A stretch of DNA of 64,000 nucleotides, taken from Streptomyces sp. HD. GTDB taxonomy: Bacteria > Actinomycetota > Actinomycetes > Streptomycetales > Streptomycetaceae. Position numbers and translations under genes: made by a program. The stretch is from contig NZ_JAQMYP010000026.1 of the NCBI RefSeq assembly GCF_028369295.1, forward strand, positions 62,001-126,000, read 5' to 3'. Positions 52,094-56,393 of this stretch are shown piece after piece (position 1 is the first letter of the stretch; every line of letters starts with the position of its first letter). The notes beneath the pieces were generated by a model. The model was not told where the DNA came from, searched no databases, and saw only the letters and a list, made by a program, of their open reading frames with translations.

Positions 52094-52672
52094 TCACCCC
52101 GCGTCCGGCATGTCCTCGCGGCCGTGTCGTGAGGTGTCCGGTGTCTCGATGCCCGCGTCCGCGTCCGGGCGTGGCTGGGGCAGGACCGGCTGGAGTACCA
52201 GCATCCGCTCGACCAGGCGCAGGAACATCGCCACGTCGCGTATCAGGTCGTCGGCGTCCCGGCGACTGGCCGCGCCCTGGATGCCCGCCTCGGCCCGGGC
52301 GCGGCGCCGGGCGCCGGAGGCGAACAGCGCGCTCCACTCGGTGAGTTCGGGCGCTATCTCGGGGAGCACTTCCCAGGCGCTCCTGATCCGGGCCCGACGC
52401 CTGGGCGAGGGCTCCGGGCGCCCCCGCGCGGCGAGCACGGCGGCGGCGGTGCGCAGGGCGGCGAGGTGGGCCGTGGCATAGCGCTCGTTCGACGTTTCCA
52501 GGACGGCGGCCTCGTCCAGTGCGGCACGGGCCTGGGCGAGCAGGTCGAGGGCGGCGGGCGGGGCCGTGGTCCGGCGGAGCACAGGGTGCACGTCGCTCGC
52601 CGGGCCGGTCAGTGAGGGGGCAGGGCCGGTGGCGCGGCGCCGACGGGCGGCGGCTGCGTGGTAGCTGGCCAT
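52094..52672 (-). CDS. SAV_6107-type HEPN domain protein
   Basis: 192 residues from ATG 52672, preceded by AGGAGG at ideal spacing. The helical core (about 40-165) matches the actinobacterial SAV_6107-type HEPN family. It contains R64-YATA-H69 (in NERYATAHLAAL), an R-x4-H motif like the catalytic motif of HEPN ribonucleases. HEPN proteins are often toxins or RNases, but no nucleotidyltransferase partner is adjacent. It is divergent from the ABC/YhgE module, with 166 bp between the starts. The N-terminus (AAAARRRRATG) is basic. Confidence 0.82.
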   Translation of the reverse strand: MASYHAAAARRRRATGPAPSLTGPASDVHPVLRRTTAPPAALDLLAQARAALDEAAVLETSNERYATAHLAALRTAAAVLAARGRPEPSPRRRARIRSAWEVLPEIAPELTEWSALFASGARRRARAEAGIQGAASRRDADDLIRDVAMFLRLVERMLVLQPVLPQPRPDADAGIETPDTSRHGREDMPDAG

Positions 52673-52772
52673 GACGAACCTCCTGTCGTCTGTGTGACGG
52701 CATGCCCGATACGGGATGCCGTATGTGCCCATCGTGAGGTATGGCACTGACAATCCGTTCTGACCTGCGCTT

Positions 52773-52801
52773 TTGCTTCGCTCGCGAGTTCGGACTAAAT
52801 T
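52773..52801 (+). promoter_or_regulatory. Candidate promoter of the ABC/YhgE operon
   Basis: TTGCTT (52773-52778) and TAAATT (52796-52801) are separated by exactly 17 bp, a good fit to a vegetative promoter. Transcription would start at about 52808, inside the palindrome 52806-52819 and about 30 nt before the ATPase gene. Confidence 0.6.
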
Positions 52802-52805
52802 TTGC

Positions 52806-52819
52806 ACTGACCAGTCAGT
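52806..52819. promoter_or_regulatory. Perfect palindromic operator ACTGAC-CA-GTCAGT
   Basis: Six-base inverted arms with a two-base centre, placed at the predicted transcription start. This is the usual form and position of a TetR-family operator. The TetR gene at 55764 is the third gene of the same unit, so it is the natural candidate repressor. Confidence 0.75.
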
Positions 52820-52838
52820 TCAAATACGGAGGGGCAGC

Positions 52839-53684
52839 ATGGGGGGAACCGTCGCCGGAGTCGGCGTCACGGCCCTGGGTCTCGGCCTCGAAGGGCCTCG
52901 CGGGTGGGCGTTCCGCGGGGTCTCGTTCGAGGCGGAGCCCAGCTCGCTGATCACGATCGAAGGACCGTCGGGCACCGGCCGTACGTGCCTGCTGCTGGCG
53001 CTGACGGGGCGGATGAAGCCCACCGAGGGAGCCGCCGGCGTGGGCGGCAGCGCGCTGCCCAAGCGCATGGCTGCGGTACGCCGCGTCAGCGCCCTGGCCC
53101 ACGTCCCCGGCGTGACCGACCTGGAGCCGGCCCTGACCGTCGCCGAGCACCTCCACGAACGGGGGCTGCTGCAGCGGCGGTTCGGCGACTCGCTGCGCGG
53201 GCTGCTGCGGCCGCGTGCCGAGCGGAAGGGCGAGGGGCGGCGGCTGATCGACGCCGCGCTGAGTACCGCGGGCCTCGACCTGGACTCCCTGCCCAAGGGC
53301 TCGCGTACGGCCGTACGCGATCTGGAGCGGGTGGAGGCGCTGCGGCTGTCCATCGCGCTGGCCCTGATCGGGCGTCCCCGGCTGCTCGGCGTCGACGACA
53401 CCGACCTCAAGCTGTCGGACGCCGAACGGGCCGAGGTCTGGGCGCTGTTGCGGTCGATCACCGAGGCCGGCACCACGGTGATCGCGGTGTGCAGCGAGGC
53501 CCCGGGCGGCACGGTCGCGGTGTCCACGCAGGCGACCGATGAGGAGCCCGCCTCCGAGGAAGCCCGGAAGGCCCAGGAACCGCAGGACTCGCAGGACTCG
53601 CCGACATCGCAGGACTCGCAGGACTCGCAGGAATCCGACGGAAAGGAGGCCGCCGATGCGCTCACCGAGGCTGGCCGCGCTTGA
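52839..53684 (+). CDS. Degenerate ABC transporter ATPase-like protein
   Basis: 281 residues from ATG 52839 (GGAGGGG upstream). The ABC ATPase fold is recognisable, but key residues deviate: the P-loop reads GPSGTGRT (42-49) with Arg48 in place of the essential Lys, no LSGGQ signature is visible (RDLERVEALRLSIALALIG stands there), and Walker B ends LLGVDD with Asp187 where the catalytic Glu is expected. The C-terminal 50 residues are Gln/Asp/Ser repeats. It overlaps the YhgE/Pip gene by 29 nt, so the two are coupled. It probably binds, but may not hydrolyse, ATP, and may pair with that membrane protein. Confidence 0.85.
   Translation: MGGTVAGVGVTALGLGLEGPRGWAFRGVSFEAEPSSLITIEGPSGTGRTCLLLALTGRMKPTEGAAGVGGSALPKRMAAVRRVSALAHVPGVTDLEPALTVAEHLHERGLLQRRFGDSLRGLLRPRAERKGEGRRLIDAALSTAGLDLDSLPKGSRTAVRDLERVEALRLSIALALIGRPRLLGVDDTDLKLSDAERAEVWALLRSITEAGTTVIAVCSEAPGGTVAVSTQATDEEPASEEARKAQEPQDSQDSPTSQDSQDSQESDGKEAADALTEAGRA
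53590..53640. repeat. Short tandem repeat encoding SQD units
   Basis: Tandem nonamers related to CAGGACTCG, encoding repeated Gln-Asp-Ser (SQDSQDS) at the end of the ATPase-like protein. They are in frame, so copy-number changes would not disrupt the downstream coupling. Confidence 0.75.
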
Positions 53685-55740
53685 GCTGAGGCGCTTCGGC
53701 CGGGGGAAGCTGCCGCGTGCCGCCCTGGTCGCACTGCTGGTGCTGCCCCTGCTGTACGGCGCCCTGTACCTGTGGTCGTTCTGGGACCCGTACGGCCGTC
53801 TCGACCGCATCCCCGTCGCGCTCGTGAACGACGACAAGGGGGCGGCCGTCGAGGGGAAGAAGCTCACGGCCGGCGCCGACCTCACCGAAGGGCTGCGCGA
53901 CAGCGAGGTCTTCGACTGGCACGAGGTGAGTGCCGCCGACGCCGAGAAGGGCGTCGAGAACGGCACCTACTACCTGTCGCTGACCATGCCGGCCGACTTC
54001 AGTGAGCGGATCGCCTCCAGCGCGGGCGCCTCGCCGGAGACGGGCGCCCTTCAGGTGCGTACGAACGACGCGAACAACTACATCGTCGGGCAGATCTCGC
54101 GCACGGTGTTCAGCGAGGTGCGCGAGGCCGCGTCCACGAAGGCGTCGCGGTCGTTCCTGGACCGGATCTTCGTGTCGTTCTCCGACATCCACGGCGCGAC
54201 GGTGAAGGCCGCGGACGGCGCCGACAAGCTCGAAGGCGGCATCGGGAAGGCGGAGAAGGGCTCCAAGGACCTCGCGGACGGGCTGAAGAGCGCCAAGGAG
54301 GGCAGCGGCAAGCTGTCCACGGGCCTGAAGAAGCTCAACAAGGGCGCGGCCGGGGTGGAGGACGGCACCAGGCGGGTCGCGGAGGGCACGCAGACGCTGG
54401 CCGACAAGGTCAACGGCATCCACCAGAAGGTCGGCCCGTTCGTCAAGGACAACGAGAAGGCCATCGGCGACACCGCCCAGCTGGTCGCCGACGCGTCGGG
54501 AGCGATGCGCAACAACCTCGACGACCTGGTGGAGCGGGCTCCGGCCGCCGCCAAGGGCGCCCACACGGCGTCCGACGCGCTGAACGTCATCTACAAGGCG
54601 CGCTGTGAGGACGCCGTACTGTCCGACCCGGCCTGCTCCGACCTGAAGAAGGCGAAGGAGTCCGCGGCGGACGTGGCGACGATCGCCGACGACCTCAACA
54701 CGCTGATCACCGACCAGAACGGCGACCTGAAGAAGCTCGACCAGCACCTCGCCACCCTCCAGAAGCAGTCCCAGGCGCTCGCCGACCGCGCGCCCCGCCT
54801 CTCCGAGGACCTCGACGACGCCGTCACCCGGATCAACCAGCTCAACGACGGGGCCGGCAAGGTCGCCGCGGGCGCCAAGAAGCTGCACTCGGGGATCGGC
54901 TCGGCCGGCACCGGCGCGGTGAAACTGGACTCCGGTGTGGGCGAGCTGAAGACCGGCGCCTACGACCTCAACGGCGGTATGTACAAGCTCGTCGACGGCT
55001 CCGGGAAGCTCTCGAACGGGCTGCACGACGGCGCGAAGCAGATCCCCGACTACGACAAGAAGGACCGCGACCAGCGCACGGAGGTCATGGCCGACCCCGT
55101 CCAGCTCGCCTCCAGGGATCTGCACAAGGCGCCCAACTACGGCACCGGTTTCGCCCCGTACTTCATCCCGCTGTCCCTGTGGGTGGGCTCGATGGTGGCG
55201 TACATGCTGATCTCGCCGATGAACCGGCGTGCGCTCGCCGCGGGCGCCTCCGCATGGCGGATCGCGCTGGCCGGCTGGCTGCCCGTGGTGGCGATCGGGG
55301 TGCTGCAGACGGTGGCGCTGATCTCGGTGCTGCACTGGGCGATCGGGCTTGAGATGGCGCGGGCGGCCGGGACGGTGGGCTTCCTGTTCCTGGTGACGGC
55401 GTGCTTCGCGGCGATCGTGCAGTGGCTGAACGCGCGCTTCGGGGCGGCGGGCCGGATCCTCGTCCTGGCCCTGCTGATGCTGCAGTTGACGTCCGCGGGC
55501 GGCACCTACCCGGTGCAGACCAGCCCCGCCTTCTTCAACGCGCTCCACCCCTTCCTGCCGATGAGCTACGTCGTGGAGGCGCTCAGGAGGCTCATCACGG
55601 GCGGCGGTCTGGAACCGGTGTGGCACGCGTGCGTGGTGCTCGTCGCCTTCACCGCGGGCGCCGTCGCGCTGACCGCGCTGTCGGCCCGTCGGCGGCAGGT
55701 GTGGACGCTCGACCGGCTGCACCCGGAGCTGAGCCTGTGA
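53656..55740 (+). CDS. YhgE/Pip family ABC-2-type membrane protein
   Basis: 694 residues. An N-terminal membrane segment (ALVALLVLPLLYGALYLWSFWDP) is followed by the YhgE motif IPVALVNDDKGA, a large extracytoplasmic region of about 450 residues with repeated coiled-coil segments (GADKLEGGIGKAEKGSKDLA, further G-x-x-x-L repeats), and five or six membrane segments at the C-terminus. Pip/YhgE proteins were first known as phage receptors in lactococci and are distantly related to MmpL and ABC-2 exporters; function is unclear. Genes around it: degenerate ATPase upstream (overlapping), TetR downstream (23 nt). Confidence 0.92.
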   Translation: MRSPRLAALELRRFGRGKLPRAALVALLVLPLLYGALYLWSFWDPYGRLDRIPVALVNDDKGAAVEGKKLTAGADLTEGLRDSEVFDWHEVSAADAEKGVENGTYYLSLTMPADFSERIASSAGASPETGALQVRTNDANNYIVGQISRTVFSEVREAASTKASRSFLDRIFVSFSDIHGATVKAADGADKLEGGIGKAEKGSKDLADGLKSAKEGSGKLSTGLKKLNKGAAGVEDGTRRVAEGTQTLADKVNGIHQKVGPFVKDNEKAIGDTAQLVADASGAMRNNLDDLVERAPAAAKGAHTASDALNVIYKARCEDAVLSDPACSDLKKAKESAADVATIADDLNTLITDQNGDLKKLDQHLATLQKQSQALADRAPRLSEDLDDAVTRINQLNDGAGKVAAGAKKLHSGIGSAGTGAVKLDSGVGELKTGAYDLNGGMYKLVDGSGKLSNGLHDGAKQIPDYDKKDRDQRTEVMADPVQLASRDLHKAPNYGTGFAPYFIPLSLWVGSMVAYMLISPMNRRALAAGASAWRIALAGWLPVVAIGVLQTVALISVLHWAIGLEMARAAGTVGFLFLVTACFAAIVQWLNARFGAAGRILVLALLMLQLTSAGGTYPVQTSPAFFNALHPFLPMSYVVEALRRLITGGGLEPVWHACVVLVAFTAGAVALTALSARRRQVWTLDRLHPELSL

Positions 55741-55763
55741 CCGCGCGCGGGACAATCAGTGCC

Positions 55764-56393
55764 ATGGAACGCAGCAACGCCCCGTCGGGCGGCAGCACGC
55801 GCCGCGAGGCCACCCGGCAGAAGCTCTACGAGGCGGCCGTCACGCTCATCGCCGAGCAGGGCTTCTCCGCCACCACGGTCGACGAGATCGCCGAGCGGGC
55901 CGGGGTGGCGAAGGGCACGGTCTACTACAACTTCGCCAGCAAGTCGGTCCTCTTCGAGGAACTGCTGCGGCACGGAGTGGGCCTCCTGACCGCCTCCCTG
56001 CGCGAGGCCGCCGAGCAGACCGCCCGGGAAGGCGGCGGCAAGGTGGACGCCCTGGACGCGATGATCCGCGCGGGGCTGGTCTTCATCGACCGCTACCCGT
56101 CCTTCACCCAGCTCTACGTCGCCGAGCTGTGGCGGACGAACCGGGCCTGGCAGTCCACGCTGATGGTGGTCCGGCAGCAGGCCGTGGCGGTCGTCGAGGG
56201 GGTGCTGCGCGAGGGCGTGGAGAACGGCGAGTTCAGCGAGGAGATCGACATCCAGCTGACCGCCGCCGCACTGGTCGGCATGGTCCTGGTGGCCGCGCTG
56301 GACTGGAAGTCCTTCCAGCCGGAGCGCTCCCTGGACGACGTGCACGCGGCGCTGTCCCGGCTGCTGCAGGGCCGGGTGAGCGGCAGCCGCTGA
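55764..56393 (+). CDS. TetR family transcriptional regulator
   Basis: 209 residues. The TetR helix-turn-helix is clear (RQKLYEAAVTLIAEQGFSAT, then TVDEIAERAGVAKGTVYYNF at 38-57). The C-terminal ligand domain (about 70-205) is AcrR-like. It lies 23 nt after the YhgE/Pip gene and likely represses the operon through the palindrome at 52806-52819; that link is inference. GACAAT just before the start could be an internal promoter with a leaderless message. Confidence 0.95.
   Translation: MERSNAPSGGSTRREATRQKLYEAAVTLIAEQGFSATTVDEIAERAGVAKGTVYYNFASKSVLFEELLRHGVGLLTASLREAAEQTAREGGGKVDALDAMIRAGLVFIDRYPSFTQLYVAELWRTNRAWQSTLMVVRQQAVAVVEGVLREGVENGEFSEEIDIQLTAAALVGMVLVAALDWKSFQPERSLDDVHAALSRLLQGRVSGSR

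Follow-up and report, generated by a model that had tools for sequence, protein, structure and literature searches.

The YhgE/Pip membrane proteins of Bacillota, such as Pip of Lactococcus lactis and Enterococcus faecalis and YueB/YhgE of Bacillus subtilis, score above the family cut-offs of TIGR03061 and TIGR03062 and have an N-terminal membrane helix and a long extracytoplasmic helical part. Pip and YueB are known phage receptors whose native function is unsettled (PMC4999554, PMC3701619), and a transporter survey placed PIP-family proteins near the ATP-binding cassette (ABC)-2 superfamily (PMC3924187). TetR-family genes beside YhgE/Pip genes are likewise already known from other bacteria, including other phyla. 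Here we describe a three-gene unit in a 64,000-nucleotide (nt) stretch of DNA, the window, from the 10.4-Mb genome of Streptomyces sp. HD, whose near relatives are Streptomyces. In this unit a YhgE/Pip gene stands between the gene of a degenerate ABC-type ATPase and that of a TetR-family regulator, behind a single palindromic operator. We consider it reasonably probable that the unit is a self-repressed envelope module in which an ABC-2-like membrane protein is partnered by an ABC subunit that does not hydrolyse ATP and probably binds nucleotide. A sequence-only reading of the stretch had called the set an uncharacterised system; this stands for the pairing of ATPase and YhgE, since searches of the open-access literature turned up no report of YhgE/Pip having an ABC-type partner (most subscription papers and all preprints lie outside that search), and does not stand for YhgE/Pip and its TetR neighbours. 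The elements of the unit, in order, are:

52773..52801, + strand: candidate promoter, -35 TTGCTT at 52773-52778 and -10 TAAATT at 52796-52801, 17-nt spacer (from the sequence)
52801..52824, no strand: operator, a 24-bp imperfect palindrome, TTTGcACTGACCAGTCAGTtCAAA, with the core ACTGACNNGTCAGT at 52806-52819 (conservation, genome uniqueness)
52839..53684, + strand: pseudo-ABC ATPase subunit, 281 amino acids (Pfam ABC_tran, motif conservation, AlphaFold2, Foldseek)
53656..53684, + strand: 29 nt shared by the 3' end of the ATPase gene and the 5' end of YhgE, exact in 118 of 137 homologous loci
53656..55740, + strand: YhgE/Pip family membrane protein, 694 amino acids (TIGR03061/TIGR03062/TIGR03057, ABC2_membrane_3, AlphaFold2 model)
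55764..56393, + strand: TetR-family regulator, 209 amino acids (TetR_N and TetR_C_24)

YhgE/Pip and its probable partner, a degenerate ABC-type ATPase

Similarly to the Bacillota proteins, the membrane protein of the window matches TIGR03061 in its N-terminal domain (194.4 bits, cut-off 96.15) and TIGR03062 in its C-terminal domain (241.2 bits, cut-off 102.2); it also matches TIGR03057 and contains xxxLxxG repeats. It shares its N-terminal domain with EsaA/YueB of type VIIb secretion; however, its 56.2 bits against the EsaA model TIGR03929 are below the family cut-off of 122, and no type VII genes were recognised by eye among the genes of the window. A first transmembrane helix (residues ~21-42) precedes a small alpha/beta region (~52-136), a long helical hairpin (~167-462) and C-terminal membrane helices (~500-678). 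In the AlphaFold2 model, of moderate confidence, the N-terminal membrane helix and the alpha/beta region are followed by a pair of very long helices and then by a membrane block at the C terminus, a layout consistent with the match to ABC2_membrane_3, which is above cut-off. Fold and profile searches of the Protein Data Bank (PDB) with YhgE returned coiled coils only (E >= 2e-3 in the fold search) and were set aside as uninformative. Also common in the family, in G099, G107, G092 and others, are YhgE-like proteins of a second class, which are shorter (about 430-600 amino acids) and score under the family cut-off.

The ATPase-like protein matches Pfam ABC_tran (43.1 bits, cut-off 25), and its AlphaFold2 model (predicted local distance difference test score, pLDDT, 85) matches ABC ATPases in Foldseek with an E value of 2e-14, Mce1-associated, FtsE and LptB chains being among the matches. 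By its predicted fold it belongs to the ABC superfamily, and the Walker A Lys, the LSGGQ signature, the Walker B Glu and the switch His of a catalytically active ABC ATPase are all missing. The losses of the P-loop Lys, of LSGGQ and of the Walker B Glu had been noticed by the sequence-only reading and are all borne out: Walker A is GPSGTGRT, with Arg48 where Lys is expected, RDLERVEALRLS stands in the place of LSGGQ, and Walker B is LLGVDD, with Asp for Glu. The Q-loop Gln, a loss that had not been listed before, is also absent, as is the switch (H-loop) His, where a VCSEAP-type sequence is found. The gene most likely starts at ATG 52839, because a GGAGGGG ribosome site precedes it and homologues align from there; TTG 52773, merely the first TTG of the open frame, was rejected. 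The 29-nt overlap with YhgE, also recorded previously, is exact, and measures 14 nt in 15 more of the homologous loci; the YhgE ATG is preceded by the ribosome site AAAGGAGG, and an overlap so common among the loci suggests that the two genes are translationally coupled.

The degeneracy is shared by the whole family. In an alignment of 139 Streptomycetaceae homologues adjoining YhgE, whose rows are not fully independent because a few genomes were fetched twice, the P-loop region is present in 138, and all 138 have Arg48, typically as GPSGSGRT; the check set by the sequence-only reading, whether homologues keep the Walker A Lys, thus turned out as that reading expected. Among the 30 best-scoring ordinary ABC ATPase matches of the same genome, 29 have Lys and a signature-like motif, the remaining one being unscored by the script. 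None of the homologues has LSGGQ, nearly all having a LERxE-type sequence instead; at the Q-loop position most have H, P or N, the switch His is missing, and Asp187, at the Walker B Glu position, occurs in 138 of 139. Per-column entropy is zero at G42, G45, G47, R48 and D186 and 0.06 bits at T49 and D187; the P-loop mean is 0.20 bits versus 0.97 for the ATPase core, and invariant columns are scattered across the whole fold. The near-invariance of phosphate-contacting columns, when the catalytic and sandwich-forming elements are gone, points to a phosphate pocket held by selection. The ratio of nonsynonymous to synonymous substitution rates (dN/dS, method NG86, window genes versus nine relatives) spans 0.26-0.36 in the ATPase core, 0.14-0.40 in YhgE and 0.10-0.25 in TetR; the ATPase is under purifying selection similar to that on YhgE. 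Taken together, these comparisons support the view that the degeneracy is an old, selected family trait.

The ABC fold, the ABC-2-like permease and the Lys kept in two homologues from other families could suggest an ordinary working ABC exporter with unusual ATPase residues, Arg for Lys and Asp for Glu. Similarly to ABC-2 exporters with DrrA/NodI-like ATPases and to ABCA proteins, the window YhgE has an extracytoplasmic insert after the first membrane helix, and the nearest profiles of the ATPase are DrrA/FtsE/NodI and ABCA chains. Unlike in those exporters, the ATPase is far below every subfamily cut-off shown (DrrA, 51 versus 312 bits) and has no catalytic motifs. Five catalytic elements are gone together, including the signature loop, which completes the partner's site, and the switch His, and Lys-to-Arg replacement at the Walker A position generally impairs hydrolysis in ABC ATPases; a working exporter is therefore regarded as quite unlikely. 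Comparable are other ABC proteins with degenerate ATP sites, for example TM287/288 and SUR, in which one of two ATP sites is degenerate and, as here, catalytic residues are lost and the fold and nucleotide pocket persist; in contrast to them, the only ATPase gene of the operon is the degenerate one, so that a homodimer would have no canonical catalytic site.

Reach across Actinomycetes and other phyla

Thirty of 36 Streptomyces relatives carry the ATPase, always together with canonical YhgE. The other six comprise five in which canonical YhgE is missing too and one (G010) with a divergent YhgE behind an even more degenerate ATPase (43.8 bits). The ATPase-YhgE unit occurs in tandem copies at L185 and L200, and G036 has two copies at distant loci, the second, dispersed one being L230. 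ATPase matches with in-frame stops (TGA) or a split frame in three Streptomyces genomes (L018, L036 and G003 C2:325615-326318) are assembly errors or broken genes.

Other families of Actinomycetes were sampled at 40 loci with a canonical YhgE gene; the ATPase profile finds the YhgE neighbour in 36, several of the matches being weak (<40 bits), and one more neighbour (L216) was assigned by clustering with the divergent neighbours; in L215, L218 and L223 neither search detected an ABC-like gene beside YhgE. LSGGQ is absent from all of these YhgE-adjoining proteins. At the P-loop position most carry Arg and two (L212, L214) Lys; others have Q, H, L or P or have lost the residue. These states cluster on the YhgE tree (3 changes versus 9.9 in shuffles), with Lys on one branch, Q and H/L/P on two others and Arg elsewhere; the tree is midpoint-rooted only and does not give the direction of change. 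On plasmids of Rhodococcus and Arthrobacter an annotated ABC protein lies directly upstream of YhgE, where GQAGAART and ADGQERRT replace Walker A, and on a Tsukamurella plasmid a hypothetical protein holds that position. Unlike in Actinomycetes, no annotated ABC gene adjoins YhgE in 11 Bacillota and Deinococcota plasmid loci, from a collection whose gene table is incomplete.

The loss of catalytic motifs, together with the 3 of 40 loci without any detectable ABC-like gene, might indicate that the ATPase gene is a decaying relic, retained only because the YhgE start overlaps its 3' end. A dN/dS of about 0.3, invariant columns and a confident fold argue against this, as does retention across a whole class of bacteria, and we give the relic very little credence. 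More can be said for a purely structural role in the docking or assembly of YhgE, in which nucleotide plays no part and the P-loop is an evolutionary remnant, since the P-loop decays to Q, H, L or P or vanishes in other actinomycete clades and the gene still stands beside YhgE. However, a mere remnant would not explain why phosphate-contacting residues are among the most invariant columns in Streptomycetaceae, and this alternative also appears unlikely.

Several points weigh against the non-hydrolysing, nucleotide-binding partner that we favour. The partner is dispensable for YhgE in general, because in the Bacillota and Deinococcota plasmid loci YhgE has no adjoining ABC gene; with Lys kept at two actinomycete loci, a family-wide loss of catalysis is not assured; and, with the P-loop lost in some clades, nucleotide binding is hardly a function shared by all. 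The YhgE model is weak (pLDDT 64.5, predicted template modelling score 0.33), and its fold search in the PDB gave no match at E <= 0.001.

The TetR regulator, its predicted operator and the surrounding genes

The unit is closed by its own TetR gene, as had been noted previously. The product matches TetR_N (66.1 bits, cut-off 24) and TetR_C_24, and the gene lies downstream in 80 of 80 loci, 76-98% identical; across other actinomycete families it is the sole widely shared further neighbour. The closest solved structures include KstR2 and FadR types, regulators that bind coenzyme A (CoA) thioesters, which gives a hint that the ligand may belong to a CoA thioester-like class.

The promoter-operator had been called perfect, which is true of the operator arms, ACTGAC and GTCAGT; the two central bases, CA, are asymmetric, and the promoter hexamers agree at 4/6 each, below the promoter-scan threshold, with ideal 17-nt spacing and key columns about 70-78% conserved (135 loci). 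The expected transcription start falls inside the operator. Even when one mismatch is allowed, the window has no further copy of the core (0.14 expected). Upstream of the ATPase, 135 of 137 loci carry the core unchanged, flanked by the outer arms TTTTG and CAAAA. Conservation 3' of the operator drops to background within a few bases, which argues that the block is selected despite the shared ancestry of the loci. When two mismatches are allowed, the 24-bp operator occurs exactly once per genome in 19 genomes, always at this operon, and the reversed-operator control gave zero matches in the same scan; the 18 genomes without it are three relatives lacking the canonical operon, G017, in which a contig break falls at the gene, and 14 genomes from within the order but outside the family. 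Outside Streptomycetaceae 13 loci have a related TetR gene, 11 of them with the operator; of the 27 loci that lack the gene, only 1 has the operator (Fisher p 4e-7, the loci not being independent). Apparently, judging from these scans, the TetR/operator pair goes with this operon and nothing else.

The sole other perfect ACTGACNNGTCAGT in the genome (L225, 1501-1514) follows an undecaprenyl-pyrophosphate-phosphatase-like gene, recognised by eye; it is without outer arms, and a wider TetR regulon was rejected. An Rfam search of the leader found no RNA element. A second conserved intergenic stretch, ACTGACAATCCGTTCTGACC at 52746-52766 (~70% per base, 135 loci), lies in the gap between the operon and the divergent upstream gene listed here, of whose promoter it may be part:

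52094-52672, upstream and divergent: HEPN_SAV_6107 gene, the usual upstream neighbour in Streptomyces

PADLOC PDC-M05B matches to this gene are weak (20 bits), and a defence-system reading was dropped as PADLOC gave no meaningful match. The unit with its operator sits just past the dcw cluster of cell-division and cell-wall genes (ftsZ, murG, ftsW, ftsI and rsmH, recognised by eye at about 30-44 kb of the window). A functional link to the cluster or to the HEPN_SAV_6107 gene was rejected, since the position is shared only in Streptomyces.

Possible function of the module

The sequence-only reading had proposed a self-regulated envelope export or surface module with a regulatory ATPase. The old, selected degeneracy and a TetR/operator pair apparently specific to the operon agree with this proposal; for export and for a regulatory role of the ATPase no substrate or phenotype evidence was found. 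Four actinomycete genomes (Rhodococcus and three more), Listeria and Enterococcus have a glutamate decarboxylase gene next to YhgE/Pip or close by:

L231 6069-7448; L190, L195 and L201 (gene after YhgE); L244 1-459; L237 8178-9548: glutamate decarboxylase

The Listeria and Enterococcus loci also hold an HdeD/DUF308 acid-resistance protein, and this context is a recurrent acid-stress neighbourhood of YhgE/Pip. Other recurrent neighbours elsewhere are fatty-acid and bile-salt genes, and together these neighbours point loosely to acid or amphiphile stress. Three reported links were not adopted: with lauric acid an archaeal YhgE-like gene went down, not up (PMC5816558), and for ginkgolic acid and licochalcone A the available parts of the reports describe YhgE mutations in selected E. 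faecalis isolates, causality not being demonstrated there (PMC8754111, PMC9634178).

In the mechanism that we propose, YhgE would be an ABC-2-like membrane protein with membrane helices at both ends and, following the first of them, a large extracytoplasmic hairpin of helices. The ABC-type protein keeps the fold and the phosphate-binding loop and lacks the elements that form and fire the catalytic ATP sandwich; with these missing, it most likely binds nucleotide, or simply docks, and may set YhgE's conformation or assembly in the manner of a clamp, without hydrolysis. The regulator of the TetR family would bind the single palindrome over the transcription start and repress its own operon until a ligand, probably hydrophobic, releases it; YhgE, once released, would act at the membrane, possibly against amphiphilic or acid stress, an envelope function loosely suggested by gene context. 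A wider proposal, which is tentative and in our view rather doubtful, is that actinomycete YhgE/Pip proteins form nucleotide-gated, non-hydrolysing ABC-type complexes: a catalytically dead ABC dimer would sense nucleotide in the cytoplasm and, in response, switch an ABC-2-like envelope protein that carries a long extracytoplasmic stalk. In this view the YhgE proteins of other phyla either derive from a complex of this kind or work in the same way, the cytoplasmic half being absent.

YhgE/Pip proteins occur widely and act, in several Gram-positive bacteria, as phage receptors, and there is no agreement on their native function. The dead ATPase conserved as their partner and the repressor with its single site, across Actinomycetes, link them to the ABC world, and the three-gene unit offers a concrete, experimentally approachable handle on what they do. 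An ABC subunit that lacks catalytic motifs throughout a class of bacteria would be an instructive departure from the rule that such subunits are motors.

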